Assembly (NCBI RefSeq): GCF_006874465.1
Contig: NZ_VIRL01000004.1
Location: 186,001 to 250,000, forward strand
From: Microbispora bryophytorum
GTDB taxonomy: Bacteria; Actinomycetota; Actinomycetes; Streptosporangiales; Streptosporangiaceae
Reading direction: 5' to 3'
DNA: 64,000 bases
The position numbers and the translations under genes were made by a program. A model generated the notes under the pieces. The model was given only the letters and a program-made list of their open reading frames with translations. It made no database searches and was not told the origin of the DNA. This document shows, piece by piece, positions 44,500 to 58,469 of the stretch. Each line of letters starts with the position of its first letter. Within the stretch, counting starts at the first letter, position 1.

Positions 44500-45378
44500 C
44501 TAGTCGGACAGGTCGTCGAAGCCGTCGAACTCGCCGAAGGCGGCGCCGTACCGCACGCACACCATGCGGGCCACGGACTCGTGCGCGCCGAGGGGTTCGG
44601 CGCATCCGGCGCCGATCGACTCGGCGGCCGTCGTGATCCGCGCGAGGTCGGCCTCGGGTCCGATGACGTACGGCACCATGGCCAGCCGGTTGGCGCCGAT
44701 GTTGCGCAGGCGCTCGGCGGCGTCGCGCACGCTCGGCTGACCGTCCAGCGCGGCGGGGACGACGGGGAGCGTCAGGCGGGCGGCCAGCAGGACGGCCGTG
44801 GCGTCGGCGCCCCGGGCGGCCTCGTCGCCCCCGGCGGTCGCGACGATGATCCCGTCGACCGGCGAGGAGACGTTGAACAGGCGCATGCGGTCGGCGCGGG
44901 CCAGGCCCGCCTCGGCCAGGCGCACGTGCAGGGCCTCGGCCAGCAGCGGATGCGGACCGAGCGGCTCGGTGACCCGGACCGCGGCCTCGCTCTGCGTCAC
45001 GGCGTCCCGTACGGCGCGCAGCACGCGCGGATGGGGCCCGGTGACGAGCGGGACGACCACCGCGGCCGGTCCGTCCGCGGGACGCTGGGCGGCGATGGAC
45101 GCGAACTCCTTGGTGAGGTCGGCGCCGCCGTCGGCCAGCGAGACGATGCGAAGGTCGATCTGCGGGTTGTCGAACCTGACGATGGAGGCGACCTCCATGG
45201 CAACCACGTCATCGCTCGGGCCCACCGGATCCCCGGCCTTGCCCGGCACCGCCAGAACCAGGGCGGGCGCGTCGGGCGGCAGGTCGGCGGGGAGCGGCCG
45301 TCGGTGGCGGCCGGTTCCGGGCCGAGGAGAGCGCTCTCTGGTGGGGAGCTTCGGAGGATCCTCGTGACCTTCGTTCAC
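44500..45378 (-). CDS. CbiX-like (sirohydrochlorin chelatase family) protein lacking first active-site His
   Basis: 292 aa, two CbiX-type repeats. In active chelatases the first strand reads VxHGSRDP; here it is LVLAVPGKAGDP, so the metal-binding His is missing. The second site is kept as PLVTGPHPRVLRAV, and PLGPHPLLAEAL is also conserved. The second repeat starts DGIIVATAGGDEAARG, again without HG. The protein is therefore probably not a normal ferro- or cobaltochelatase. Start GTG 45378. It is divergent from the LacI operon. A sulphite-reduction or cobalamin gene context is absent. Confidence 0.8.
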   Translation of the reverse strand: MNEGHEDPPKLPTRERSPRPGTGRHRRPLPADLPPDAPALVLAVPGKAGDPVGPSDDVVAMEVASIVRFDNPQIDLRIVSLADGGADLTKEFASIAAQRPADGPAAVVVPLVTGPHPRVLRAVRDAVTQSEAAVRVTEPLGPHPLLAEALHVRLAEAGLARADRMRLFNVSSPVDGIIVATAGGDEAARGADATAVLLAARLTLPVVPAALDGQPSVRDAAERLRNIGANRLAMVPYVIGPEADLARITTAAESIGAGCAEPLGAHESVARMVCVRYGAAFGEFDGFDDLSD

Positions 45379-45514
45379 ACCGGCGGATTCTAGGGCGAAT
45401 CTGGTCGAAGAGCAGAACCAACGCGCGGCTTGTTGCGGCTTGGTGATCTAGACGGTTTACCTGTTCGTTACTTGACGCTCCCCAGGGGACCCGCTTTGAT
45501 ATGGACTCATCCGG

Positions 45515-45563
45515 CCGTAAACGTTTACGGATTGTCGCAGATTACCGGCTGGTAAACGATTAC
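45515..45563. promoter_or_regulatory. Two LacI-type operators upstream of the LacI/ABC/ARH operon
   Basis: CCGTAAACGTTTACGG (45515-45530) is a perfect 16-bp palindrome with the central CG typical of LacI sites. GTAAACGATTAC (45552-45563) is a second, slightly imperfect copy. Centres are 35 bp apart, upstream of the LacI GTG at 45591, indicating autoregulation of the whole operon. Confidence 0.85.
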
Positions 45564-45590
45564 AGGACACTCTCTTCCAAGTGAGGTGCC

Positions 45591-46634
45591 GTGACCGAGG
45601 GTCCCACGATCACTACGATCGCGCAACGCGCCGGAGTGTCGATCGCCTCGGTGTCACGGGTGCTCAACGGGCTGCCGACCCGCGAGGACACCGTGCGGCG
45701 CGTCATGCGCGCGGCCGACGAACTCGGCTACGTCCCCAATTCGGTCGCCCGCTCGCTCCGCAACCGCCGCACCGACCAGATCGCCTTCGCGATGGCCGAC
45801 ATCGGCAACCCGGTCTACGTGGCCATGGTGCGCGAGGTCCAGCCGCTGCTGAAGGAGGCCGGCTACCGGCTCCTGATCCACTCCACCGACGGCGACGCCG
45901 AGGACGAGCTCGGCGTGCTGCGCGGGCTGCGCGAGCGCTACGTGGACGGCCTGATCATCAGCCCGCTGCGCGGCGTCACCGAGGAGCACGTCGAGGCCAT
46001 CGTCGCCGCCCGCGCCCCCGTCGTCGTCATCGGCTCGCTGCCCGAGGACATGCCGGACGGTGCGCTGGTGGACAACGTGCGGACCGACTCCAGAACCGGC
46101 GTGCGGCTCGCGCTGGATCACCTGCACGCCATCGGAAGGCGGCGCATCGGCTTCCTCAACGGACCGCTGGGCACCGTTCCCGGCGCCGCCCGCGCCGCCG
46201 CCTACCGGGAGGCACTGGAGGCGCTGGACCTGCCGTACGACGAGGACCTCGTCGAGGTGGGCGACTTCTACCGCGACAGCGGCGCGCGTGCCGCGCGGGC
46301 GCTGCTGGCGCGCGCGCCCGGCGTGGACGCGCTGATGTGCGCAAACGACCTCATCGCGCTGGGCGCGCTCGACGTGCTGCGCGAGCAGGGAAGGGACGTC
46401 CCGGGTGACGTGGCGGTGGTGGGCATGGACGACACCGACCTCGCCTCCGTGACCTGGCCGACGCTGACCAGCGTCTCGCTCGGGTCGGCCGAGCGCGGCC
46501 GGGCGGCGGCCGGGCTGCTGCTCGACCGGCTGCAGAACGGCCCGCGCGAGCCGCGGGTGGTGGTCGTGCGGCCGAGCCTCACGATCCGCGGCTCGACCAC
46601 TCTTCCCGAGGCGTCGCCGGGAGGTGCCCGGTGA
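45591..46634 (+). CDS. LacI-family transcriptional repressor
   Basis: 347 aa. HTH with hinge at about 6-60 (TITTIAQRAGVSIASVSRVLNGLPTREDTVRRVMRAADELGYVPNSVARSLRNRRTDQIAF), then a periplasmic-binding-like sugar domain with DNVRTDSRTGVRLALDHLHAIGRRRIGFLNGP and VDALMCANDLIALGALDVL. GTG 45591 has GAGGT upstream. It overlaps the permease gene by 4 bp and is first in its own operon. Its inducer should be the substrate of the ABC importer, a sugar or riboside. Confidence 0.95.
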   Translation: MTEGPTITTIAQRAGVSIASVSRVLNGLPTREDTVRRVMRAADELGYVPNSVARSLRNRRTDQIAFAMADIGNPVYVAMVREVQPLLKEAGYRLLIHSTDGDAEDELGVLRGLRERYVDGLIISPLRGVTEEHVEAIVAARAPVVVIGSLPEDMPDGALVDNVRTDSRTGVRLALDHLHAIGRRRIGFLNGPLGTVPGAARAAAYREALEALDLPYDEDLVEVGDFYRDSGARAARALLARAPGVDALMCANDLIALGALDVLREQGRDVPGDVAVVGMDDTDLASVTWPTLTSVSLGSAERGRAAAGLLLDRLQNGPREPRVVVVRPSLTIRGSTTLPEASPGGAR

Positions 46635-47560
46635 CCGCGCTCGTCGAGCGGCCGTACGGCCGCTCGGGAGGCGGGCCGCGTCGTGGGCCCCGTCGTGGGC
46701 CCCGTCGTGGGCCATGGTCCGGGGGCGGGCTCGTGCTGCTGCTCCCGGCGCTCGTGCCGGTGCTGGTCTTCAGCGTGGGCCCGCTGGTCTACGGCATCCT
46801 GCTGGCCTTCACCGACGCGCGGTCCGGCCGCAATGCCGAGACCTCGTTCGTCGGCCTGGAGAACTTCGCCGAGTTGCTGTCGGACGGCGACTTCTGGGAG
46901 TCGTTCCGGATCGGCATGATCTGGGGCCTGTCGGTGACCGTGCTGCAGTTCCTCGCCTCGCTGGGGCTCGCGCTGCTGCTGAACCAGGACCTGCGCCTGC
47001 GCGGCGTCGCCCGGGTGCTGGCGGTCGTGCCGTGGGCCATGCCGCCCGTGGTGGTCGGCCTGATGTGGCGGCTGGTCTACCACCCGGACGCGGGACTGCT
47101 CAACGGACTGTTCGGCTCGGACGTCGACTGGCTGCACGATTTCTCCCTCGCGCTGCCCGCGGTCATCGTCGTCGGGGTCTGGACCGGCATGCCGCAGACC
47201 ACGGTCGTGCTGCTCGCCGGCCTGCAGAGCGTGCCGAGGGAGCTCTACGAGGCGGTCAGCGTCGACGGCGCGGGCGCCTGGCGGCGGTTCTGGAACGTCA
47301 CGCTGCCGCAGCTGCGGCCCGTCGTCGTGGCCATCACCTCGCTCGACTTCGTCTGGAACATCAACCAGTTCAGCCTGGTCTACGTGCTCACCCAGGGCGG
47401 GCCGGGCGGGCGGACGAGGCTGCCCATGCTGTTCGCCTACGAGGAGGGGTTCCGCTACGGCTTCTTCGGGTACGCCGCGACGCTCGGCGTGGCGATCACG
47501 ATCGTCGTGCTGGCCGTGCTGGGCCTGTACCTGTGGCGGCAGGCGCGGGAGGGAGACTGA
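46631..47560 (+). CDS. Sugar ABC transporter permease (MalF-like)
   Basis: 309 aa, six predicted membrane spans. EAVSVDGAGAWRRFWNVTLPQLRPVV is the EAA loop that contacts the ATPase. N-terminal residues 13-30 contain three exact GPRR repeats from a 12-bp tandem duplication, an unusual basic cytoplasmic tail. GTG start overlaps the LacI stop. With the permease at 47562 and the lipoprotein at 48489 it forms an importer of the carbohydrate-uptake-1 class. No ATPase gene is nearby; a shared MsiK-type ATPase encoded elsewhere is likely, as in streptomycetes. Confidence 0.94.
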   Translation: MTALVERPYGRSGGGPRRGPRRGPRRGPWSGGGLVLLLPALVPVLVFSVGPLVYGILLAFTDARSGRNAETSFVGLENFAELLSDGDFWESFRIGMIWGLSVTVLQFLASLGLALLLNQDLRLRGVARVLAVVPWAMPPVVVGLMWRLVYHPDAGLLNGLFGSDVDWLHDFSLALPAVIVVGVWTGMPQTTVVLLAGLQSVPRELYEAVSVDGAGAWRRFWNVTLPQLRPVVVAITSLDFVWNINQFSLVYVLTQGGPGGRTRLPMLFAYEEGFRYGFFGYAATLGVAITIVVLAVLGLYLWRQAREGD

Positions 47561-47561
47561 C

Positions 47562-48380
47562 ATGACCCGCGCGCTGAAATACCTCGCCCTGCTGGGATAC
47601 CTCGTGTTCCTGGCGTTCCCGCTGCTGTGGCTGCTGTCCACGGCGCTGAAGACGCCGCAGGAGATGGCCGCCCTCGACCCCACCTGGATCCCGCGCCGGC
47701 CCACGCTGGCCAACTTCGCCGACGCCTTCGCCGAGCAGGACCTGGTCGGCGCCGGGCTGCGCAGCCTCGTCGTCGCGGTCGCCACCGCCCTGATCACGGT
47801 GGCGCTCGCGCTGCCCGCGGCGTACGCGCTGGCCCGGTTCCGCGGCGTGGCCGGGAAGATCGCGATCGGCTGGGTGCTGGTCAGCCAGGTCTTCCCGGTC
47901 GTCCTGATCATCATTCCGCTGTTCATGGTGCTGCGGCGGATGGAACTGGTGAACACCCTCGCCGGGCTCACGGTCGTGCACGTCACGTTCGTCATGCCGT
48001 TCGCGCTGTGGATGCTGCGCGGGTATGTGCGGGCGGTGCCGCGCGAGCTGGAGGAGGCGGCGGCCGTGGACGGCGCGGGCCGGCTGCGCGCACTGGCCGC
48101 CGTCGTCGCGCCGCTGCTCGCGCCCGGCGTGGTCGCGACGCTGCTGTTCAGCTTCATCTCGTCCTGGAACGAGTTCATGTTCGCCCTCGTGATCCTCAAG
48201 GATCCCGGGGTGGAGACCCTTCCGCTGACGCTGGTGCGCTTCGTCGGCCCGGAGGGGGTCGCCCGGCTCGGGCCGCTGGCGGCGGCGTCGCTGCTCGCGA
48301 CCGTGCCGAGCCTCGTCTTCTTCGCCACCATCCAGCGGCGCCTGCGGTCCGGCCTGATGGCCGGGGCCGTCAAGGGCTGA
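47562..48380 (+). CDS. Sugar ABC transporter permease (MalG-like)
   Basis: 272 aa, six membrane spans. The start MTRALKYLALLGYLVFLAFPLLWLLSTALKTPQEM is standard, and ELEEAAAVDGAGRLRALAAVVAPLLAPG is the EAA loop. FSFISSWNEFMFALVIL is the conserved late segment. It pairs with the preceding permease (1-bp gap). Both lack a cognate ATPase in this operon. Confidence 0.95.
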   Translation: MTRALKYLALLGYLVFLAFPLLWLLSTALKTPQEMAALDPTWIPRRPTLANFADAFAEQDLVGAGLRSLVVAVATALITVALALPAAYALARFRGVAGKIAIGWVLVSQVFPVVLIIIPLFMVLRRMELVNTLAGLTVVHVTFVMPFALWMLRGYVRAVPRELEEAAAVDGAGRLRALAAVVAPLLAPGVVATLLFSFISSWNEFMFALVILKDPGVETLPLTLVRFVGPEGVARLGPLAAASLLATVPSLVFFATIQRRLRSGLMAGAVKG

Positions 48381-48411
48381 CCCGCATGGCGACACCTGAT
48401 AGGAGGTCTCA

Positions 48412-48492
48412 ATGAGCGAGCGTAGCGAGCTGATCGGGAAACACAGCGGTCGACGAATGTCGCTCCGAGCCGAAGGCGAGGAGGCGGCATGA
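48412..48492 (+). CDS. Possible 26-aa leader peptide before binding protein
   Basis: AGGAGG (48401-48406) sits 5 nt before an ATG that opens a 26-codon frame (starts MSERSELIGKHSGRR, Arg/Glu/Ser rich) whose TGA overlaps the ATG of the binding-protein gene (ATGA). The Shine-Dalgarno is stronger than that of many genes here, and no other role for it is apparent. Translation could couple to or boost the binding protein, the most abundant importer part. Similar GAGCGAGCGTAGCGAG stretches occur as intergenic repeats in actinomycetes, so it may instead be repeat-derived. Confidence 0.45.
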   Translation: MSERSELIGKHSGRRMSLRAEGEEAA

Positions 48493-49796
48493 AGAGATTG
48501 AGTGCCGCGCTGGCCGTGGCGGCGGTCGCGCTCGCCGCCGGGTGCGGGAGCGGCGGCGGCGACGGCGGCGGTGACGCGGCGTCCGGGGAGCCGGTGAAGC
48601 TGCGCTTCCTCAGCCTGGCCTGGCAGAAGGAGTCGATCGAGGCCAACAAGCAGATCGTCGCCGACTGGAACACGGCCAATCCGAAGATCCAGGTCGAGTA
48701 CGTCCAGGGGAGCTGGGACAACGTCAACGACCAGCTCGTGACGTCGTTCGAGGCCGGCGATCCGCCGGACGTCATCCACGACGACTCCCCGGCGCTGTCG
48801 AGCTTCGCCTCGCGGGGCTTCCTGCTCGACCTCACCGGCAAGATCCCCGCCGAGCTGAACGGCGACATCCCGCAGGCCGCGTGGGACACGGTCACCTTCT
48901 CCGACGGCAAGAGCGGCCAGGGCGTCTACGGCGTGCCGTTCCTCCAGGAGTCGCAGGTGCTCATCGCCAACAAGAAGCTACTCGACGGCGCCGGCGTGCG
49001 CGTGCCCACCCCGGACTCCCCGTGGACGTGGGACGAGTTCGCCGACGCGGCCGGGAAGCTCACCAAGAAGGGCGCGTACGGCGTGGCCTGGCCGATGAAG
49101 TCGCCGGTCAACAAGGTGCTGAACCTGGCGCTCAACTTCGGCGGCACCTTCTTCGACACCCAGGGCGGCAAGACCACGGTGAAGGTCGGGCCGCAGGAGC
49201 GCGAGGTGCTCCAGCGCATTCACGACCAGCTCTACACCGACAGGTCGGCCGACCCGTCCGCGCTCGGCATGGGCACCGCCGACCCGCTGCCGGGCTTCTT
49301 CGCCGGCAAGTACGCGATCGTCCCGGCCGGGGTGTACCTGCGCCAGCAGGTCGCCGAGCAGGCGCCGAGCGGGTTCGAGTGGGTCACGCTGCCGCCGCTG
49401 AAGGGACAGACCTCCCAGCAGGGCGCGGTCTCCCAGACGCTGTCGGTCGCCGCCGACAGCAAGCACCCCGACGAGGCGCTGAAGTTCATCGCGTACTTCC
49501 TGAACGGCCCGAACCAGGCGAAACTGGCCAAGGGTGACTGGCTGCTGCCCACCAGCACGACCGCCGCGAAGGATCCCGCGCTCACCACGAAGGAGAACGG
49601 GTGGGACGTCGCCACCGCCTCGGCGAAGGACCTCGTCGTCGCGCCGTTCCTCAAGGTGAACGGGTTCGACGAGTGGAAGAGCAAGGTGGCCACGCCGGCG
49701 ATGCAGGAGTACTTCGCCGACAAGATCAGCCTGGACGAGCTGGCCAAGCGACTCGTCGAGGACGGGAACAAGGTGCTGGAGCGGTACAGCCGTTGA
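48489..49796 (+). CDS. Sugar ABC transporter substrate-binding lipoprotein
   Basis: 435 aa. Lipoprotein signal MKRLSAALAVAAVALAAGC with lipobox Cys at 19, then a Gly-rich spacer and a family-1 (MalE-like) binding fold: LRFLSLAWQKESIEANKQIVADWNTANPKIQVEYVQGSW, GDPPDVIHDDSPAL, VYGVPFLQESQVLIANKKLLDGAGV. GAGGAGG precedes the ATG. It captures the sugar substrate for the two permeases. The C-terminus overlaps the first ADP-ribosylglycohydrolase gene by 4 bp (TTGA). Confidence 0.95.
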   Translation: MKRLSAALAVAAVALAAGCGSGGGDGGGDAASGEPVKLRFLSLAWQKESIEANKQIVADWNTANPKIQVEYVQGSWDNVNDQLVTSFEAGDPPDVIHDDSPALSSFASRGFLLDLTGKIPAELNGDIPQAAWDTVTFSDGKSGQGVYGVPFLQESQVLIANKKLLDGAGVRVPTPDSPWTWDEFADAAGKLTKKGAYGVAWPMKSPVNKVLNLALNFGGTFFDTQGGKTTVKVGPQEREVLQRIHDQLYTDRSADPSALGMGTADPLPGFFAGKYAIVPAGVYLRQQVAEQAPSGFEWVTLPPLKGQTSQQGAVSQTLSVAADSKHPDEALKFIAYFLNGPNQAKLAKGDWLLPTSTTAAKDPALTTKENGWDVATASAKDLVVAPFLKVNGFDEWKSKVATPAMQEYFADKISLDELAKRLVEDGNKVLERYSR

Positions 49797-50872
49797 TCTC
49801 CGTACGTGACCGCGCCCGGGGCTGTCTGCTCGGACTCGCCGCCGGCGACGCCCTGGGCGCCCCCGCGGAGAACCTCGCTCCGGAGGAGATCGCGGCCCGG
49901 TGGGGCGTGCTGACCGAGATCGAGCGCGGCGGCACCGACGACACCGAATACACGATCTTCGCCGCCACCGTGCTCCTGCGCCACGGCCACGCGCTCACCT
50001 CCGAGGACGTGGCGCGGGCCTGGCGCGAGGAGATCGTGGCGCGACTCGACGGGCCGATGCGCGGCGCCGGGTTCTCCGAGCTCGGCACCGTCGAGGCCCT
50101 GCGCCGCGGCCTGGAGCCGCCGCTGACCGGCCGGTGGCACGCCCACGGCTGGTCCGACGGCCTGGCCATGCGGGCCGCGCCGTACGGAATCTTCGCGGCG
50201 GGCGACCCGGACGAGGCGGCGCGGCTGGTGGAGGCCGACGGGCGGGTGAGCCACACGGGCGAGGGGATACTCGGCGGCCGGGCGGTGGCCGCGGCGGTCG
50301 CGGTCGCGATGACCGGCGCCCCGCCCGGCGAGGTGGCCGGGGCGGCCCTGCGGGCGGTTCCGGAGGACTCCTGGACGGCCCGCAACCTTCGCGCCGCGCT
50401 CGACGTCGTGGCCCGCACGTCCCGCCCCCTCCGGGGACGTGCGCTGCCCGATTCCTCCGGTCGTGGGCTACACGATTCCCTTGGGCGTGCTCTGCACGGC
50501 TCCGGTTGTGGGCTGCACGATTCCTTTGGGCGTGCTCTGCACGATTCTTTTGGGCGTGCTCTGCACGACACGGTCGTGGTCAGGCACTACCCGTGGACGG
50601 ACCTGGCGCCCGAAGCGGTCGCCCTCGCGTTCGCCGCCTACACGGCGGGTGACGGGGAGGTCGAGGCGTCGGTCGTCATCGCGGCCAACCTCGGCAGGGA
50701 CGCCGACACCACCGCCGCCGTCGCCGGGGCTCTCGCGGGGGCCGGCCGGGGCGAGGCGGCGGTGCCGGCGCGCTGGGCCGAGCGCATCGGCCCGGTGGCG
50801 GGCCGGTGCCTGCCCGTGGTCGCCGGACGCGATGTCCGCGACGTCGCCGACGAGATCGTGAAGGGACTGTAG
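49793..50872 (+). CDS. ADP-ribosylglycohydrolase family protein A
   Basis: 359 aa. The ARH fold motifs are intact: GCLLGLAAGDALGAPAEN (10-26), Mg-binding GGTDDTEYT (46-54) and GRDADTTAAVAGALAGA near 303-317. It should cleave an N- or O-ribosyl bond with two Mg ions. The only start consistent with the motif-bearing frame is TTG 49793, overlapping the binding-protein stop. Residues about 218-262 are a low-complexity insertion of GRALHDS-type repeats encoded by 24-bp tandem units, probably a surface loop. First of four successive paralogues. Confidence 0.88.
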   Translation: MISVRDRARGCLLGLAAGDALGAPAENLAPEEIAARWGVLTEIERGGTDDTEYTIFAATVLLRHGHALTSEDVARAWREEIVARLDGPMRGAGFSELGTVEALRRGLEPPLTGRWHAHGWSDGLAMRAAPYGIFAAGDPDEAARLVEADGRVSHTGEGILGGRAVAAAVAVAMTGAPPGEVAGAALRAVPEDSWTARNLRAALDVVARTSRPLRGRALPDSSGRGLHDSLGRALHGSGCGLHDSFGRALHDSFGRALHDTVVVRHYPWTDLAPEAVALAFAAYTAGDGEVEASVVIAANLGRDADTTAAVAGALAGAGRGEAAVPARWAERIGPVAGRCLPVVAGRDVRDVADEIVKGL

Positions 50873-50878
50873 GACCAC

Positions 50879-52039
50879 ATGCCATCGGGGCACAGGCAGG
50901 ACGGGCGGGACAGGCTCGATCGCGTGCGGGGGGCCTTCGCCGGTCTCGCCGCCGGCGACGCGGCCGGGTGGCCGGCCGCCCGGCACCGGTCCGCGCTGCT
51001 GGCCGGCTGGGCCAGGCGGCTGCACCGGGAGCTCGACGCGTTCGCCGAGGAGCGTCAGGTCACCACGCTGCCGGTGCCGTTCGCGCTGAACCAGCCGGTG
51101 GCGCCGCTGGCGGTCGGCCCGTCGGACGACGCCGAGTGGCTGGCCTGGACGGCCCTGACCATCCGGGAGAACCGGGCGGAGGCGTTCGGCCGCCTCGCGG
51201 GCCGCGACGACTTCCGGGCGCGCATCTCGGTGTGGGCGGCGCTCGACAACCTGGCGGCGGGCAAGCTCCCGCCCGCCAGCGGGCACGACAACCCCCACCA
51301 CTTCGACGACGCCGCCGCCGTGCGGGCCGTCGCCTTCGGCGCGGCCGGGCTGGACCCGTTGGAGGACGCGTGCGTCACCAACGCGGAGGACGGCGTGCTC
51401 GGCGCGGTCGCGACGGCCCGGGCGGTCGCGGCGCTGACGGACGGCGCTCCGATGGCCGACGCGGTGGAGGCGGCGCTCGGCGCGCTGCCGCCGGACACGG
51501 CCATCGGGCACGCGGCGCGCGAGGCGCTCGCGGCGGCGCGGGCGGCGGGCTCGCCCTTCGCCGCCGTGCCGGCGCTGGACGCCGCCGTGCTCGACCACGT
51601 CTACAGCTACGGTGTGGCCGCCGCGCAGACGGTGCCGATCGCGCTGGCCCTCGCGGACGCCGCCGTCACCTCCGCCCGACGGACGCCCGGTGTGGAGAGG
51701 GTCGCTGTGGAGCGGCCCGGCGTGGAGGAGTTCGGTGCGGAGCGGCCCGGTGTGGAGAGGGTCGGTGTGGAGCGGCCCGGCGTGGAGAGGGTCGGTGTGG
51801 AGCGGCCCGGCGTGGAGAGGGTCGGCGCGGAGGCGTTCGGCGCGGGCGTCTCGGCCGCGGCCTGCCTGGCGCCGGTCGCCGACTCCGCGCCGGCGCTCAC
51901 GGGCGCGCTGCTCGGCTGCGCCGCGGGCTACGACGCGCTGCCCGCCGCCTGGCGCGAGCGGGTCCGCACCCTGGCCGGTTGCTGCCTGCCGGAGCTCGCG
52001 GGAGCCGACCTGCTGGACATCGCCGGGCGACTCGCATGA
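50879..52039 (+). CDS. ADP-ribosylglycohydrolase family protein B, degenerate motifs
   Basis: 386 aa. The start GAFAGLAAGDAAGWPAARH and the overall helical pattern (FDDAAAVRAVAFGAAGLDPLEDACVTNAEDGVLGAVATARAVAAL) place it in the ARH family, but the metal sites are altered: TDDT becomes SDDAEW (82-87), and the C-terminal DxDT is replaced by PVADSAPALTGALLG. Residues about 264-320 are tandem GVERVGVERP repeats from 30-bp units. It may have a different metal use or act as a noncatalytic partner of its neighbours. ATG 50879, 6 bp after gene A. Confidence 0.8.
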   Translation: MPSGHRQDGRDRLDRVRGAFAGLAAGDAAGWPAARHRSALLAGWARRLHRELDAFAEERQVTTLPVPFALNQPVAPLAVGPSDDAEWLAWTALTIRENRAEAFGRLAGRDDFRARISVWAALDNLAAGKLPPASGHDNPHHFDDAAAVRAVAFGAAGLDPLEDACVTNAEDGVLGAVATARAVAALTDGAPMADAVEAALGALPPDTAIGHAAREALAAARAAGSPFAAVPALDAAVLDHVYSYGVAAAQTVPIALALADAAVTSARRTPGVERVAVERPGVEEFGAERPGVERVGVERPGVERVGVERPGVERVGAEAFGAGVSAAACLAPVADSAPALTGALLGCAAGYDALPAAWRERVRTLAGCCLPELAGADLLDIAGRLA

Positions 52040-52074
52040 CGCCCGGCACATCTCGGGACAAGGGGGAGGACTGG

Positions 52075-53271
52075 ATGACGCCGCAGGAGGGCCCGCCGGT
52101 CGATGCGCCGGTCGATGTGCTGGCCGACAAGGCGGTCGGATGTGTGGCGGGCGCCGCGGTGGGCGACGCGCTCGGCGGAGCCACCGAGGGCTGGACGCCC
52201 GAGCAGATCCAGGAGCGCTACGGCGGCCGGGTCCGCGGCATCGTCCCACCCTTCAACGAGGACTGGCGCAACGCCCGCCCGATCGCGCCCTACCACAAGG
52301 GGGACGGCCACGTCACCGACGACACGTTGATGACGCACGCCCTCATCCGGGTGTACGAGCGCGTCGGCGGCCACCTCGACGCCTACGCCGCGGCCGAGCA
52401 CCTGGTCCCCGAGATGATGGGGGACAAGCGGTGGATCCCCGAGCTGGAGGCCGAGGCGCTGCCGCTCCACCGGGTGTTCCTCGCCGAGAAGTGGCTCGTG
52501 CTGCGGCTGCACTACGGCCACGCCGACCCCCGCGAGGCCGGCGTCGGCAACATCGTCAACTGCGGCGCCGCGATGTACATGGCCCCGGTCGGCGTCGTCA
52601 ACGCCGGCGACCCCGACGGCGCGTACGCCGAGGCGATCGACCTGGCCGGGGCGCATCAGTCGAGCTACGGCCGCGAGGCGGCGGGGGTGCTCGCGGCGGC
52701 GGTCGCCGAGGCTATGCGGCCGGGGGCGACCCCCGACTCGGTGGTCGCCACCTGCCTGCGGCTCGCCCGCGACGGCACCCGGGCCGCCATCGACGCGGTC
52801 TGCTCGGTCGCCCGGGGCCTCGGCCACTGGGACGGCTCGTTCGAGGCCCTTCGGGCCGCCATCCGGCCGTACGACACGGTGGCCGACACCTACCGCGACC
52901 AGGGTCTCGGGGCGCGGCGGCCGAGCCGGCTGCACAGCATCGAGGAGTTGCCGCTCGCGCTCGCGTTCCTGGTGATGGCCGAGGGCGACTACCGCGAGAC
53001 CGTGCTCGGCGGCGTCAACTACGGGCGCGACGCCGACTCGATCGCCTCGATGGGCGGCGCCGTCGCCGGGGCGCTCGGCGGGCGGGCCGCCGTCCCCGCC
53101 GACTGGCTGGAACAGGTCGCGACGGCCAGCCGCACGGACCTGGTCGGGCCGGGGCTGGCGCTCGCGGCCGTGGCACGGCGGGTCCACCGGGCCGACGCGG
53201 AGCGCCGCCGCGCGCACGAGGCCGCCTTCGACGCCCTGCTCGCGCCGCGCGGAGAAGGGGACGCCCGATGA
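52075..53271 (+). CDS. ADP-ribosylglycohydrolase family protein C
   Basis: 398 aa. All ARH motifs are intact: GCVAGAAVGDALGGATEGW (22-40), HVTDDTLMT (79-87) and NYGRDADSIASMGGAVAGALGG near 314-335. Probably the most conventional enzyme of the four. ATG 52075 is chosen for its strong GGGGGAGGA; ATG 52036, which overlaps the gene B stop, is the alternative. It follows gene B and precedes gene D on one transcript. Confidence 0.9.
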   Translation: MTPQEGPPVDAPVDVLADKAVGCVAGAAVGDALGGATEGWTPEQIQERYGGRVRGIVPPFNEDWRNARPIAPYHKGDGHVTDDTLMTHALIRVYERVGGHLDAYAAAEHLVPEMMGDKRWIPELEAEALPLHRVFLAEKWLVLRLHYGHADPREAGVGNIVNCGAAMYMAPVGVVNAGDPDGAYAEAIDLAGAHQSSYGREAAGVLAAAVAEAMRPGATPDSVVATCLRLARDGTRAAIDAVCSVARGLGHWDGSFEALRAAIRPYDTVADTYRDQGLGARRPSRLHSIEELPLALAFLVMAEGDYRETVLGGVNYGRDADSIASMGGAVAGALGGRAAVPADWLEQVATASRTDLVGPGLALAAVARRVHRADAERRRAHEAAFDALLAPRGEGDAR

Positions 53272-53302
53272 CCCCGGCGGCGCGAAGCGGAGGGGACGCG
53301 CG

Positions 53303-54667
53303 GTGATCCGGCTGACGTGGGTGCAGCCCGAGGACCTCGTCGGCCACGAGCTGCGGCAGGCGGCCGAGGACGGGCGGGGGGCGCTCCCGGAGGTGGCGGC
53401 CGTCGGCGACCGCTGGCACGCCGCCGGGGGACACGACGCGCCGCCCAGGGCGGGCGCCTCCCCGGGGCCCGCGTCCGTAGAGCTGCGCGCCCTGGCCGAG
53501 GGACTGCTCGACGAACTCGCGGCGATCCCCTCGCCGCTGCCCGAGCCCTCGGAGCTCGACGAGATCGTCGCGAGCTGCCCTGACTGGCCCGCCCTGCGTC
53601 CGCAGGCCCGCCCGCTGATCCGTCCGGAGGCGGGCCGCGTACGGGGAGCGTGGTGGGGCCGGGCGGCCGGCTGCCTCCTGGGCAAGCCGGTGGAGAAGAT
53701 CCCCCGCGAGGGGATCAGGGCCATCGCCGAGGCGACCGGCAACTGGCCGATCCGCGGCTGGTTCACCGCGAAGGGGCTGCCGCCCGAGATCGCGGAGCGG
53801 TGGCCGTGGAACCGCCGCAGCGCGGGCACCAGCCTCGCCGAGAACATCGACGGCGTGCCCGAGGACGACGACCTCAACTACGCGCTGCTCGCGCTCGCCG
53901 TGCTCGAACGGCACGGGCGCGACTTCACGACCGAGGACGTCGCGCGGACCTGGCTCGACACGCTGCCCGCCGGGCGGGTCTTCACCGCCGAGCGGGCGGC
54001 CTACCGCAACCTGCTGACGGGTCTCGAACCTCCCGTGACCGCCGTCCATCGCAACCCCTTCCGCGAGTGGATCGGCGCGCTGATCAGGGCCGACGTGTAC
54101 GGCTGGGCCAACCCGGGCGACCCGGCGACGGCCGCGGCCTGGGCGTGGCGGGACGCCCGGCTCAGCCACACGGCCAACGGGATCTACGGCGCGATGTTCG
54201 CCGCCGCCATGTGCGCGCAGGCGCTCGTGGCCGGGGGCGCGGGCGAGGTGATCGAGGCCGGGCTGTCGGTCGTGCCGCCCGGCTCGCGCCTGGCCGGAGC
54301 CGTACTGCAGGCCGTCGCGGACGCCGCGGCGGAGCCGGACTTCGAGCGGGTCGCGGACCGGCTGCACGCGCGGCACGGGCATCTCCACTGGGTGCACACG
54401 GTCAACAACGCGGCGTTGCTGGCGGCGGCCCTCGTCCACGGCGCCGGGGACTTCGCCGCGACCGTCGGCGCCGCCGTGGCCGGGGGCTGGGACACCGACT
54501 CGGCCGCCGCCACGGCCGGGTCGATCGCCGGGGCGCTGGCGGGCGGCGTCCCCGAGCGGTGGACGACCCGGGACCGGCTCGCCAGCAGCCTGCCCGGCTT
54601 CGACGGCGTCAGCATCGAGTCGCTCGCCGCCCGCACGCTCGCGCTCGGTGAGGAGGACCGACGGTGA
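53303..54667 (+). CDS. ADP-ribosylglycohydrolase family protein D with N-terminal extension
   Basis: 454 aa. An N-terminal extension of about 110 residues with no recognised domain precedes the ARH core (RGAWWGRAAGCLLGKPVEKIPREGI). GDALG is replaced by GCLLG and TDDT by EDDD (about 187-190), while the C-terminal GGWDTDSAAATAGSIAGAL is intact. One metal half-site is therefore remodelled with acidic residues kept, which could mean altered specificity rather than loss. GTG 53303; its end overlaps the ribokinase gene by 4 bp. Confidence 0.85.
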   Translation: MIRLTWVQPEDLVGHELRQAAEDGRGALPEVAAVGDRWHAAGGHDAPPRAGASPGPASVELRALAEGLLDELAAIPSPLPEPSELDEIVASCPDWPALRPQARPLIRPEAGRVRGAWWGRAAGCLLGKPVEKIPREGIRAIAEATGNWPIRGWFTAKGLPPEIAERWPWNRRSAGTSLAENIDGVPEDDDLNYALLALAVLERHGRDFTTEDVARTWLDTLPAGRVFTAERAAYRNLLTGLEPPVTAVHRNPFREWIGALIRADVYGWANPGDPATAAAWAWRDARLSHTANGIYGAMFAAAMCAQALVAGGAGEVIEAGLSVVPPGSRLAGAVLQAVADAAAEPDFERVADRLHARHGHLHWVHTVNNAALLAAALVHGAGDFAATVGAAVAGGWDTDSAAATAGSIAGALAGGVPERWTTRDRLASSLPGFDGVSIESLAARTLALGEEDRR

Positions 54668-55560
54668 TCTCGGTGTTCGGCAGCGCCAACATGGACCTGG
54701 TGGCGTACGTCGCCCAGGCTCCCAGGCCGGGGGAGACCGTCACGGGCCGGGAGTTCCGTACGGTTCCCGGCGGCAAGGGGGCCAACCAGGCGATCGCCGC
54801 GGCCCGTGCGGGAGCCGGCGTGGCCTTCCTCGGGGCGGTGGGGGACGACGCGTTCGGGCCGGGGCTGCGGGCCGCGCTCGCCGAGGCGGGCGTGGACACC
54901 GCCGGGCTGCGGGTCGTGCCCGGCCCTTCGGGCGTCGCGCACATCGTCGTGGAGGACGGCGGCGACAACTCGATCATCGTGGTGCCCGGCGCGAACGGCG
55001 CGGTCACCGGCCCCGCCGGGCGGGACGCGGAAACCATCGCCCGGTCCGACGCGCTGCTGCTGCAACTGGAGCTGCCGATGGACGCCGTCGTCGCCGCGGC
55101 ACACGTTCCGCGTGGCGTGTCGTCCCGTGCCGAGGTGATCCTGACCCCGGCCCCGGCGGCGCCGCTGCCCGCCGAACTGCTGGAGGCCGTCGACCTCATC
55201 GTGCCCAACGAGCACGAGGCGGCGGCACTCACCGGCCGCGACGATCCCCGGGACGCGCTGGAGGCGCTGCTCGGCCTCGTCCCCGAGGCCGTCGTCACCC
55301 TGGGGGCCCGGGGCGCCCTGTACGGCTCGCGCGACGGCACCCGCCTGCGCGAGGCCGCCGTACCGGTGCGGGCGGTGGACACCACGGCGGCGGGGGACAC
55401 CTTCGCGGGGGCGCTGGCCGTGGCCAGGACCGAGGGGGCCGGCCCGGCGCGGGCGCTGCGCTTCGCCTCGGCCGCGGCGGCGCTGTCGGTGCAGCGGGAG
55501 GGCGCCAGCACCTCCATGCCGCACCGCCACGAGATCGACCGTCTTCTGGAGGGGCTGTGA
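54664..55560 (+). CDS. rbsK: Ribokinase (PfkB family)
   Basis: 298 aa. ISVFGSANMDLVAYV is the ribokinase start, VPGGKGANQAIAAARAGA the substrate motif, NSIIVVPGAN the lid region and VDTTAAGDTFAGAL the ATP motif with catalytic Asp. It phosphorylates ribose or a close sugar to the 5-phosphate in the cytoplasm. GTG start overlapping ARH D by 4 bp ties it to the hydrolases, so the released sugar is probably ribose-like. Confidence 0.93.
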   Translation: MISVFGSANMDLVAYVAQAPRPGETVTGREFRTVPGGKGANQAIAAARAGAGVAFLGAVGDDAFGPGLRAALAEAGVDTAGLRVVPGPSGVAHIVVEDGGDNSIIVVPGANGAVTGPAGRDAETIARSDALLLQLELPMDAVVAAAHVPRGVSSRAEVILTPAPAAPLPAELLEAVDLIVPNEHEAAALTGRDDPRDALEALLGLVPEAVVTLGARGALYGSRDGTRLREAAVPVRAVDTTAAGDTFAGALAVARTEGAGPARALRFASAAAALSVQREGASTSMPHRHEIDRLLEGL

Positions 55561-55562
55561 CC

Positions 55563-56738
55563 ATGGAAGGCGAGCGGAGCGGGCCGCTCGACGGCGTACG
55601 GGTGATCGACGCCGCCACGCTGTTCGCCGGGCCGACCGCGGCGATGCTGCTCGGCGACTACGGCGCGGACGTCGTCAAGGTGGAGCACCCGCGCCGGCCG
55701 GATCCGTCGCGCGGGCACGGGCCCGAGGGGCTCTGGTGGAAGATGCTCGGCCGCAACAAGCGGACGATGACGCTCGACCTGTCCACCGCGGAGGGCCAGG
55801 ACCTGATGGTCCGGCTCGTCGAGGACGCCGACGTGCTCATCGAGAACTTCCGCCCCGGCACCCTGGAGCGCTGGAACCTGTCCTGGGACCGGCTCAGCGA
55901 GGTCAACCCCCGCCTGGTGCTCGCCAGGGTCACCGGGTTCGGCCAGTTCGGCCCGTACGCCGGGCGGCCCGGCTTCGGCACGCTCGCCGAGGCGATGAGC
56001 GGGTTCGCCGCGATGACGGGGGAGCCAGGCGGGCCGCCCACGCTGCCGCCGTTCGGGCTGGCGGACGGCATCTGCGCGCTGGCCACCGCGTTCGCCGTGA
56101 TGACCGCCCTGCGGTCGGGACGCGGGCAGGTCGTCGACCTGTCGATCATCGAGCCGATCCTGACCGTGCTCGGCGCCCAGCCGACCGTCTACGGCCGGCT
56201 CGGCGTCGTGCCCCCGCGTACGGGCAACCGCTCGGTCAACAACGCGCCGCGCAACACCTACAGGTGCCGCGACGGGTCCTGGGTCGCGGTCTCCACCTCG
56301 GCGCAGAGCATCGCCGAACGGGTGATGCGCCTGGTCGGACGGCCCGACCTGGTGGACGAGCCGTGGTTCGCCACCGGCGCGGGCCGGGTGGCGCACGCGG
56401 ACGAGCTCGACGCGGCCGTGGCGGCGTGGGTCGGCGCGCGGACCCGGGAGGAGGTGCTGCGGGCGTTCGAGGAGGCGGACGCCGCGGCGGCGCCGATCTA
56501 CGACGTGCGTGACGTGCTGGCCGACCCGCAGTTGGGCGCGCTCGACGCCGTGACCACCGTGGAGGACCCCGAGCTGGGCCCGCTGCGCATGCAGAACGTG
56601 ATGTTCCGGCTGTCGCGGACCCCGGGACGGATCCGGTGGACCGGCCGTCCGCACGGCGCCGACACCGACGAGATCCTGCGCGGTCTCGGCCTGACCGGCG
56701 CGGAGATCGAGGCGCTGCGCACCAAGGGAGTGGTGTGA
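55563..56738 (+). CDS. CaiB/BaiF (class III) CoA-transferase
   Basis: 391 aa from ATG 55563 (GGAGGGG 9 nt upstream; GTG 55557 overlaps the kinase stop). PLDGVRVIDAATLFAGPTAAMLLGDYGADVVKVEHP is the family start; Asp168 in PPFGLADGICAL aligns with the catalytic Asp of formyl-CoA transferase; GRGQVVDLSIIEP follows. It moves CoA between carboxylic acids. Next to a CitE-like lyase it recalls the transferase-lyase pairs of itaconate or citramalate breakdown, but no hydratase is present in the operon. Confidence 0.92.
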   Translation: MEGERSGPLDGVRVIDAATLFAGPTAAMLLGDYGADVVKVEHPRRPDPSRGHGPEGLWWKMLGRNKRTMTLDLSTAEGQDLMVRLVEDADVLIENFRPGTLERWNLSWDRLSEVNPRLVLARVTGFGQFGPYAGRPGFGTLAEAMSGFAAMTGEPGGPPTLPPFGLADGICALATAFAVMTALRSGRGQVVDLSIIEPILTVLGAQPTVYGRLGVVPPRTGNRSVNNAPRNTYRCRDGSWVAVSTSAQSIAERVMRLVGRPDLVDEPWFATGAGRVAHADELDAAVAAWVGARTREEVLRAFEEADAAAAPIYDVRDVLADPQLGALDAVTTVEDPELGPLRMQNVMFRLSRTPGRIRWTGRPHGADTDEILRGLGLTGAEIEALRTKGVV

Positions 56739-56759
56739 CATGTCACCAGGTGATCGGGC

Positions 56760-57686
56760 ATGAGCGGCGATCTTCCGGAAAGGGGCACGGAGGATTCGCG
56801 AGGAGTTGACGCCGTGCCTTCTTCCGCACCTTCCGCGGGGCCTCCTTCCGGGCCTGCTGCAGCGTCTGCCGCGGGGTCCGCTACCCGCCCCCTGACGTGG
56901 TTGTACGTGCCCGCCGACCGCCCGGACCGGATCGCCAAGGCCCTCGGCGGCGAGGCGGACATGGTGATCGTGGACCTGGAGGACGCGGTCGCCCCGGAGA
57001 ACAAGGGCGTCGCCCGGGCCGGGGTCGTCGCCCTGCTGGCCACGCCGCAGCCCCGCGTGGAGGTCCGCGTCAACGACGTGCGCACGCCGTACGGCCAGGC
57101 CGACCTGCACACGCTCGCAACGCTGCTGCACGGCGGCGGCGGCCTGCGCGTCCCCAAGGTGGAGTCGGCCGACGAGATCCGCTGGATCGCCGACGCGGTG
57201 CCGGGCGTGCCGCTGCGCCCGATCATCGAGTCGGCCCTCGGACTGGAGCGCGCCTTCGAGATCGCCACCGCCTCACCGGCCGTCGCCGGGATCGGCCTGG
57301 GCGAGGCCGACCTGCGCGCCGACCTCGGCGTGACCGACGAGGCGGGCCTGACCTGGGCGCGTTCCCGCATCGTGGTCGCGGCGCGAGCGGCGGGGCTGCC
57401 GGCCCCGGCCCAGTCCGTGTATACGAACGTCCGCGACCTCGACGGCCTGGCCGCGTCCTGCGCAGCGGGCCGGGCCATGGGCTTTCGCGGCCGGGCGGCC
57501 ATCCACCCCGTCCAGCTTCCGGTGATCGCGGCGGCCTACCGCCCGGCCAGGGAGGAGATCGTGGCCGCCCTGGAGGTCGTCTCCGCCGCCGATCAGGGCG
57601 CGGTCGCCCTCGCCGACGGCCGCTTCGTCGACGAGGCCGTCGTCCGCCAGGCCCGCCGCCTCCTCACCGACGCCGGCGATCACTGA
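56760..57686 (+). CDS. HpcH/HpaI (CitE-like) CoA-ester lyase
   Basis: 308 aa. After a low-complexity Ala/Pro/Ser N-terminus of about 42 residues comes the CitE fold: WLYVPADRPDRIAKAL, MVIVDLEDAVAPENKGVAR, VEVRVND, RVPKVESADEI, PIIESALGLE and GIGLGEADLRADLGV with Mg-binding Glu and Asp. It should cleave a 3-hydroxyacyl-CoA such as malyl- or citramalyl-CoA. Last gene of the LacI operon, 21 bp after the CoA-transferase, and the likely acceptor of its product. Confidence 0.92.
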   Translation: MSGDLPERGTEDSRGVDAVPSSAPSAGPPSGPAAASAAGSATRPLTWLYVPADRPDRIAKALGGEADMVIVDLEDAVAPENKGVARAGVVALLATPQPRVEVRVNDVRTPYGQADLHTLATLLHGGGGLRVPKVESADEIRWIADAVPGVPLRPIIESALGLERAFEIATASPAVAGIGLGEADLRADLGVTDEAGLTWARSRIVVAARAAGLPAPAQSVYTNVRDLDGLAASCAAGRAMGFRGRAAIHPVQLPVIAAAYRPAREEIVAALEVVSAADQGAVALADGRFVDEAVVRQARRLLTDAGDH

Positions 57687-57735
57687 GGCGGGCGATCACT
57701 GAGGCGGGCGATCACTGAGGCGGGCGATCACTGAG
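57672..57735 (+). repeat. Four-copy 16-bp tandem repeat at operon end
   Basis: The unit GCGGGCGATCACTGAG repeats four times; the first copy covers the lyase stop codon (one mismatch). No terminator hairpin is seen before the opposing methyltransferase stop at 57741. Confidence 0.75.
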
Positions 57736-57740
57736 GCGCT

Positions 57741-58469
57741 TCACGTCGCACGCCGCGCGACGAACACGAACTCACGACCCGGGCGATCGGGGGCGTCCCG
57801 CACCTCCAGTACGCGATAGCCGTTCGCGACCAGGCTCGTCTCCACCTCGTCACGGTCGCGGAACCGCAGGGTCGAGTCCGAGGTGACGACCGCGCCGTCC
57901 GCCAGGAACGTGTAGGTGTAGCGGAAGGACACCAGCGGCAGGCTCACATCGGTGACCTCGCGGCGCTGCTCCACGAGCCCGGCCTCCGGGAGGTCGAGGA
58001 CGACCGGACCGGTGTCCGAAGCCCACTCCTGCCACGCCCGGCGTTCGGGACGCCTGGTCTCGAAGACGAGATGACCCTGCGGGCGGAGCGCGCCGCGGAT
58101 GCCCCGCAGAGTCCGCGTCCAGTCGTCGTCGGTGAGAAAGACCTGCGCCACGTTCCCCGTCATCACGGCGAGGTCGGCGCCGAACGCCGGCACTCCGGTG
58201 GCATCGCCGTGGATCCAGGTGATCCTTCCGGTCCGATCCTTCGATCCGGCGATCTGCAGCGACGCCTCGGCGGGATCGACGCCCATGACCGTGCGTCCGC
58301 TGTCCGCCAGCAGAATCGCCAGGCACCCCGTTCCGCAGCCGACGTCGAGCACGCGGTCGGCGCCCAGCTCGTCGGCGATGGCGAGATAGGCGTCCAGGTC
58401 GGCGCGGTCACCGTCGAAGGCGTCGTAGACGGCGGCCAGGCGAGGATGGTCGAAGATCGGGTCAGGCAC
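57741..58469 (-). CDS. Class I SAM-dependent methyltransferase
   Basis: 242 aa. Motif I is VLDVGCGTGCLAILLADSG (about 40-58), with VMGVDPAEASLQIA and GDATGVPAFGADLAVMTGNVAQVFL following. The N-terminus FDHPRLAAVYDAFDGDRADLDAYLAIADELGA is typical of actinomycete methyltransferase_25-like proteins. The substrate is unknown. It is convergent with the LacI operon and follows the LuxR-type regulator gene on the same strand by 64 bp. Confidence 0.9.
   Translation of the reverse strand: MPDPIFDHPRLAAVYDAFDGDRADLDAYLAIADELGADRVLDVGCGTGCLAILLADSGRTVMGVDPAEASLQIAGSKDRTGRITWIHGDATGVPAFGADLAVMTGNVAQVFLTDDDWTRTLRGIRGALRPQGHLVFETRRPERRAWQEWASDTGPVVLDLPEAGLVEQRREVTDVSLPLVSFRYTYTFLADGAVVTSDSTLRFRDRDEVETSLVANGYRVLEVRDAPDRPGREFVFVARRAT

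Follow-up and report, generated by a model that had tools for sequence, protein, structure and literature searches.

We describe an eleven-gene operon of Microbispora bryophytorum found in a stretch of 64,000 nucleotides (assembly GCF_006874465.1, contig NZ_VIRL01000004.1, positions 186,001 to 250,000; this whole stretch is referred to as the window, and positions are given within it). The operon encodes a LacI-family repressor, a CUT1 ABC importer, four members of the ADP-ribosylglycohydrolase (ARH) family, a ribokinase-like kinase, a CoA-transferase-like protein (CoAT) and a CitE-like lyase. It is probably an unstudied pathway for using some ribose-tagged acid, because related bacteria carry much the same gene set. 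We regard it as very probable that the operon is catabolic, is controlled by LacI and serves an imported compound, with the ARHs taking part. The whole chain, which would run from uptake of a ribosylated acid through ARH cleavage, ribose salvage and CoA activation to retro-Claisen cleavage, seems to us an evenly balanced proposition.

Gene content, gene order, operators, conservation and co-occurrence of the parts are read here directly from genome sequences. The eleven genes (45591-57686) follow one another on the plus strand in the order LacI, permease 1 (perm1), permease 2 (perm2), solute-binding protein (SBP), ARH-A, ARH-B, ARH-C, ARH-D, RbsK, CoAT and CitE (Table 1). Assignment by hmmscan returned the same families that a preliminary description of this DNA had named (LacI, importer, four ARHs, ribokinase, CoA-transferase and lyase). 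The distances between neighbouring genes are -4 bp for LacI/perm1, +1 for perm1/perm2, +108 for perm2/SBP, -4 for SBP/A, +6 for A/B, +35 for B/C, +31 for C/D, -4 for D/RbsK, -4 for RbsK/CoAT and +21 for CoAT/CitE. Nearly every junction had been described as about 35 bp or less, which holds for nine of the ten; perm2/SBP is the sole junction outside the range of -4 to +35 bp. These distances were computed from called gene coordinates, in which the starts of ARH-B (50879 or 50924) and ARH-C (52075) are choices of the gene caller. From this spacing and from the conservation described below, we infer that the eleven genes form one transcript. A promoter scan found no sigma-70-like promoter in 45300-57900, which is a weak test for a GC-rich actinomycete, and the same interval has three terminator-like sites against 1.5 expected from shuffling.

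Table 1. Operators and genes of the operon, and the extra protein encoded in some related clusters.
Feature	Position	Strand	Remarks
LacI-type operator O1	45517-45528	.	GTAAACGTTTAC, perfect palindrome
LacI-type operator O2	45552-45563	.	GTAAACGATTAC
LacI-family repressor	45591..46634	+	best NCBIfam model RbsR, 181 bits, under cut-off of 382
CUT1 ABC permease 1 (perm1)	46631..47560	+	BPD_transp_1
CUT1 ABC permease 2 (perm2)	47562..48380	+	BPD_transp_1
Solute-binding protein (SBP)	48489..49796	+	SBP_bac_1; closest solved relatives bind sugars/oligosaccharides
ARH-A	49793..50872	+	PF03747; intact Glu, TDDT and DADT metal motifs; TTG start overlaps SBP stop
ARH-B	50879..52039	+	divergent PF03747; start 50879 or 50924; SDDAEW retained; Glu absent; V for first Asp of last motif
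ARH-C	52075..53271	+	PF03747; canonical metal motifs; most conserved ARH of the set
ARH-D	53303..54667	+	N-terminal extension of ~110 residues, then PF03747; EDDD replaces TDD; DTDS intact
PfkB kinase, ribokinase-like (RbsK)	54664..55560	+	TIGR02152 295.7 bits, cut-off 299.65
Class III (CaiB/BaiF) CoA-transferase-like protein (CoAT)	55557..56738	+	CoA_transf_3; RPGFGTLAEAMSG at GYD position of relatives
CitE/RipC-like C-C lyase (CitE)	56760..57686	+	HpcH_HpaI; active-site residues conserved
Extra FGE-like protein	L132:12591-14834, L123:13429-15396, L116:13749-15779, L052:6471-8414		cluster-associated

Two LacI-type operators precede the LacI gene. They are the only matches to the pattern GTAAACGNTTAC in the window (0.03 expected with one mismatch or fewer), and exact matches in the whole 7.85-Mb genome are confined to the same two sites. 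Of 61 related loci, 58 have the operator pattern in the 250 bp that precede LacI and 37 have two or more sites; the remaining 1.19 Mb of these loci contain two occurrences. A looser pattern matches all 70 of 70 upstream regions, a figure without the chance control that the stricter pattern has. The local LacI protein would repress the operon via the two operators, and the substrate or ribose would relieve repression.

A family search across 60 relatives detected PF03747 (ADP_ribosyl_GH) in 42, and several genera have three or four such genes clustered; the 20 stretches mapped first lay nearly all around PF03747 clusters. With a profile of ARH-C, at least 544 relatives were confirmed in named genomes. 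The best 80 were kept, and 64 of these loci have enough flank on both sides to be counted. LacI, perm1, perm2 and SBP are each present in 51 of the 64 loci, ARH-A and ARH-B in 62 each, ARH-D in all 64, RbsK in 52, and CoAT and CitE in 43 each. Most frequent are the complete set seen in the window (22 loci) and the same set minus CoAT-CitE (20), followed by A-B-C-D-RbsK-CoAT-CitE without the importer (8). For contrast, we took 20 PF03747 genes outside such clusters, hand-picked down the list rather than at random and mostly high-scoring. None of the 20 has a LacI, permease or SBP match within about 15 kb, and three have a PfkB match nearby (two adjacent, one four genes off). Set against these ARHs, the conserved linkage of ARH, importer and ribokinase genes, which the preliminary description had proposed as a check, is strongly positive across the loci. 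In Streptomyces scopuliridis RB72 the cluster occurs twice (L142 and L150), once with LacI and importer and once with neither.

Relatives of ARH-C at about 44-55% identity are also found on rhizobial plasmids. Each of three plasmid records has the order LacI-permease-permease-SBP-ARH-ARH-UgpC, with a ribokinase next in one; the order in Mycolicibacterium arabiense is LacI-ARH-D-like-SBP-permease-permease-ribokinase-UgpC. CoAT-CitE is in none of the three rhizobial operons, nor in that of M. arabiense, within the stretch shown. The second rhizobial ARH carries a C-terminal part of ~400 residues, which has no Pfam match beyond PF03747 and, against solved structures, gave chance-level matches only (a levanase binding module at E 0.17).

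All four ARHs of the operon score above the PF03747 gathering cut-off of 26.2 bits (190.3, 62.9, 163.8 and 164.7 bits for A to D), and they account for four of the five PF03747 matches in the genome. In ARH1, ARH3 and DraG, metal is bound through a Glu, a TDD motif and a DxDT(S) motif. Counted over distinct alignment rows, ARH-A has Glu and TDDT in 86 of 86 and DADT in 84, with 2 gapped (2 with a DSDT-type middle residue), and ARH-C has TDDT and DxDS in 105 of 105 and Glu in 104. All 101 rows of ARH-D keep the Glu and the two Asp motifs, with E for T in 97. In ARH-B, Glu is not among the commonest letters, and the 18 alignable rows have V or L instead of the first Asp in the last motif (64 of 82 are gapped there). 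The SDDAEW motif is kept in 81-82 of 82 rows, and this strict conservation argues that ARH-B is not simply decaying. Both ARH-A and ARH-B contain an in-frame tandem repeat ahead of the last metal motif (50428-50568, 24-bp unit, and 51685-51832, 15/30-bp unit, respectively); the matched part of ARH-A is 359 residues long here and between 320 and 344 in seven relatives within Microbispora.

In a tree of 82 ARH sequences, A, B, C and D form one group each (supports 99/92, 100/100, 100/100 and 100/100), A and B are sisters (96/80), and the rhizobial and M. arabiense proteins are placed within C and D. Solved relatives of the operon ARHs include DraG, Tri1 and ARH3; the best scores with the corresponding equivalog models are 69.9 versus 337 bits for DraG (TIGR02662) and 44.6 versus 490 bits for Tri1 (NF041672). 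A and B are present together in 62 of the 64 full loci and absent together in two, and C and D without A and B are found in these two loci as well as in L052 and L053. A may work with B, and C with D, as partners. A/B-like ARH pairs without C/D lie beside LacI and CUT1 genes in L054 (7562-11273) and L055 (8291-14652), a second, related system.

The importer has the composition of a CUT1 system (SBP_bac_1 with two BPD_transp_1 permeases), and no ABC ATPase gene is present among the eleven genes. RbsK falls marginally short of the ribokinase equivalog TIGR02152 (Table 1), and its closest solved relatives by sequence are ribokinases in all 15 of the 15 listed. The motifs GGKGAN and AAGD have established roles in ribokinases; in RbsK, GGKG and GD are each kept in 87 of 87 rows, duplicates included.

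CoAT matches Pfam CoA_transf_3 with 403 bits (cut-off 23.3), and its best NCBIfam model, succinate-glutarate CoA-transferase, gives 228 of 750 bits. CitE matches HpcH_HpaI with 119 bits and scores 184 versus 375 bits with its nearest equivalog, RipC. In CitE, malyl-CoA and citramalyl-CoA lyases, the conserved residues bind Mg and the 2-oxo acid or act as acid. The corresponding residues here (VDLED, VRVN, ES/ET, GEADL and VD) are conserved at key positions in 59-60 of 60 rows and point to a 3-hydroxyacyl-CoA with a carboxylate at C3 as the likely CitE substrate.

Parts missing from a cluster usually sit elsewhere in the genome. In a family sample of 200 genomes (CoAT threshold E <= 1e-140; nine candidates scored per genome, absences therefore not firm), ARH-C was found in 50 genomes and CoAT of the operon kind in 75, namely in 50 of 50 genomes with ARH-C versus 25 of 150 without (12 of 150 at 65% identity or more). 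Of the 50 genomes, 32 have CoAT no more than 12 kb from ARH-C and 18 do not, one of the latter having it at a contig edge. The 17 unlinked copies have 66-72% identity and represent a second type, which seven genomes with a linked copy have too; among Nonomuraea, 12 of 12 genomes whose cluster lacks CoAT carry a 66-69% copy elsewhere. At ten unlinked places inspected, CoAT adjoins CitE in eight. The CoAT-CitE pair of Nonomuraea L193 is accompanied by a divergent GntR-FCD regulator and then a TRAP DctM permease, neighbours that would fit an organic-acid substrate; L200 matches L193 in gene lengths and order, the families being known from the L193 scan alone. Two less similar CoAT copies are found beside allantoinase/hydantoinase-like amidohydrolases (L201:9756-15582 and L202:8207-12147), accompanied either by cyclase-family and MmgE/PrpD genes (in one of the two) or by a luciferase-like oxidoreductase gene, a possible ring-opening pathway with the same CoAT type.

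The importer behaves similarly. Among 13 Streptomycetaceae genomes whose cluster is without it, 11 have perm2 elsewhere at 61-64% identity (next best 40-45%) and two (G650 and G652) have no importer elsewhere. The unlinked importer consists of perm1-perm2-SBP; the neighbouring gene, on the opposite strand, has about 288 codons and encoded an APH-family protein in both genomes where it was scanned, and neither LacI nor its operator accompanies the importer genes. In a phylum sample of 396 genomes, with some candidates scored per genome, the importer was seen in five, all with a close ARH-D.

An extra glycoside hydrolase/FGE-like protein is encoded in four of the 64 full loci (two Jiangellaceae and two Microbacteriaceae) and in L052, where its gene either separates CoAT from the ARHs/kinase or follows ARH-D; in L053 it forms a fusion with the kinase, and in one Cryobacterium genome bin it lies on another contig. 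Some 650-750 residues long, the protein has an FGE-like C-terminus, and its N-terminal part gives no Pfam match. In the predicted secondary structure, strands and helices alternate in one region and strands prevail in another, besides the FGE-like end, and an AlphaFold2 model from four sequences was poor (pLDDT 40). None was seen in the 396 phylum genomes, where three candidates were scored in each and absence is not firm, nor in five of 12 cluster genomes tested. The protein looks cytosolic and, as a guess, may be a glycoside hydrolase.

The reactions and the identity of the substrate are inferred from these families and motifs. We picture a substrate-induced catabolic operon, in which the CUT1 importer, with an ATPase supplied from elsewhere in the genome, would take up a small ribosylated compound. 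The ARH-fold enzymes, acting as two pairs of paralogues (A plus the degenerate B, C plus D), would cleave its ribosyl bond or bonds in the cytosol, and RbsK would phosphorylate the freed ribose to ribose phosphate. The aglycone would be a hydroxy-acid or a precursor of one; the CaiB-like protein would load it onto CoA, and the Mg-dependent CitE-like lyase would split the CoA ester into an acyl-CoA and a 2-oxo acid in a retro-Claisen reaction. We considered the tetrahydromethanopterin side chain, alpha-ribazole, imidazoleacetate riboside and citramalate glycosides as substrates, and the data pick none of them. The broader statement, that this is an undescribed and widespread actinobacterial pathway for ribosylated acids with catabolic ARH pairs A/B and C/D (intact plus modified), an Asp-less CaiB-like enzyme and a retro-Claisen step, is tentative and falls somewhat short of an even chance.

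Several observations weigh against this pathway. The putative cleavage activity of clades A-D is assigned from the sequence family, with the DraG and Tri1 cut-offs far off, and ARH-B is without metal-ligand residues. The nucleophilic Asp of class III CoA-transferases sits in a GYD motif, which is present in two solved CoAT relatives that were aligned and in a paralogue from the same genome. CoAT has Gly at this position (RPGFGTLAEAMSG) in 63 of 63 distinct cluster rows, and the Asp is also absent in 10 of 10 further copies; because the canonical Asp is missing, another residue would have to serve or the reaction would differ. Twelve of the 64 clusters have no RbsK in the locus and 21 have no CoAT, and the 80 loci, being those closest to the operon among at least 544, over-represent close kin. 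In one case CoAT-CitE forms its own unit with GntR regulator and TRAP permease, so the pair could act on an acid from another source. The Fisher test of CoAT and ARH-C co-occurrence ignores shared ancestry and genome size, and the importer is shown by five of ten phylum genomes with a close ARH-D (4 and 6 candidates scored per genome, absences not firm).

Rather unlikely, in our view, is catabolism of a non-ribose glycoside. In that case the ARH fold would act on an oligosaccharide or sugar-acid as a general furanosidase or lyase, the kinase would use a different pentose or a hexose, and the sugar part would be the source of the acid. The closest solved binding proteins bind oligosaccharides (for example, an arabino-oligosaccharide protein), the poorly modelled FGE-ended protein of some clusters is possibly a glycoside hydrolase, and RbsK misses the ribokinase cut-off by 4 bits. 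The motifs of RbsK are conserved, however, all 15 of its listed solved relatives are ribokinases, and a ribokinase-like gene recurs in the M. arabiense operon and in one of the three rhizobial ones. The preliminary description had suggested that transferase and lyase could act in the same process as the ARHs. This is supported by co-occurrence even when the genes are unlinked: CoAT is present in 50 of 50 ARH-C genomes (in 17 as an unlinked second-type copy, in one at a contig edge) and elsewhere in 12 of 12 Nonomuraea genomes whose cluster is without it. It is weakened by the separate GntR/TRAP unit of Nonomuraea and by the 21 of 64 clusters without CoAT. These two facts, the lack of CoAT-CitE in the three rhizobial operons and M. 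arabiense, and the presence of CoAT of this kind in 25 of 150 genomes without ARH-C would all suit an importer-ARH-kinase pathway that merely shares its transcript, in some lineages, with an unrelated acid-degradation module, an explanation we judge unlikely.

That the ARHs reverse protein or nucleic-acid ADP-ribosylation in regulation or immunity, with incidental neighbours, is very improbable. In many genera they sit beside genes for LacI, importer and kinase, a linkage absent in the 20 other ARHs; no toxin or transferase partner was seen in the operon, and equivalog scores stay below the cut-offs. PF03747 membership and the presence of DraG, Tri1 and ARH3 among solved relatives agree with such a role, and immunity ARHs exist, as described in PMC3482391.

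The operon is flanked by a minus-strand gene with a weak CbiX match on the left and a minus-strand methyltransferase gene on the right. The divergent CbiX-like (cobalt chelatase-like) neighbour (44500-45378, minus strand) stays beside LacI in several Microbispora relatives and, outside Microbispora, was seen among the genera mapped only in Microtetraspora fusca (L091). A tandem repeat (57664-57738, 16-bp unit, 4.7 copies) spans the CitE stop and reaches the intergenic space that separates CitE from the convergent methyltransferase gene. The window yielded no match when scanned for Rfam families and for tRNAs.

The preliminary description held that ARHs are usually not discussed in sugar catabolism with a dedicated importer, which is only partly right, as ARH-permease-kinase triplets are annotated in Escherichia coli and staphylococci. 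E. coli yegTUV encodes an ARH, a sugar kinase and a transporter in one operon repressed by GgaR/YegW, its function being unproven according to PMC10819704. It resembles the operon of the window in combining these three functions under a repressor and differs in having an MFS nucleoside-type transporter, a GntR regulator and one ARH, without CoAT or lyase. Orthology of the operon ARHs with YegU was rejected: in the 82-ARH tree, YegU lies outside clades A-D and groups with other ARHs, three of which are PfkB neighbours (100/99 support). In the staphylococcal triplet SERP2216-2218 and its SCC relatives, ARH, permease and ribokinase genes are adjacent, as described in PMC3637587 and PMC3321955. 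This triplet, compared by description and not by sequence, differs in its cytosine/purine-type permease, single ARH and lack of an acid module. The rhizobial operons share gene order and the ARH-C/D clades with the operon of the window and differ in having their own ATPase (UgpC) and the ~400-residue C-terminal part on the second ARH, and in lacking A/B and CoAT-CitE. DraG, ARH3 and Tri1 have the PF03747 fold family in common with the operon ARHs, of which A and C keep the metal motifs; similarity is low, equivalog scores fall short and no ADP-ribosyltransferase partner was seen in the operon. Itaconate/citramalate degradation (RipC/Ccl) likewise proceeds by CoA activation and then a CitE-like C-C lyase; the operon of the window has no itaconyl-CoA hydratase, its lyase is below the RipC cut-off, and its CoAT is without the canonical Asp. 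The rus locus of Bacteroides thetaiotaomicron (BT2803-2809) serves regulated ribose and nucleoside-ribose scavenging, according to PMC12596196. Regulated ribose scavenging is the likeness, and uptake of the outer-membrane type is the difference. Presumably this locus also encodes an ARH.

No description of this gene set was found in open-licence literature, a coverage that leaves out most subscription journals. Combinations of an ARH, a transporter and a sugar kinase have been annotated before, in yegTUV and in staphylococci, with reactions still unproven. As far as searched, the following points are new within that literature: one operon holds four distinct ARH clades, these stand with LacI and a CUT1 importer behind a conserved operator, rhizobia have a counterpart, and an acid-degrading pair co-occurs tightly with the set.

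If the proposed pathway is true, the ARH family, known mainly for undoing ADP-ribosylation, would gain a catabolic role, and a ribosylated acid would be common enough in the environment for some rhizobia, as well as many actinomycetes, to maintain a dedicated importer and enzymes. A way toward the function of yegTUV and of the staphylococcal ARH triplet would open up as well. Since the operon is compact and has a single repressor, the substrate question is directly testable via the binding protein, the repressor and the purified enzymes.

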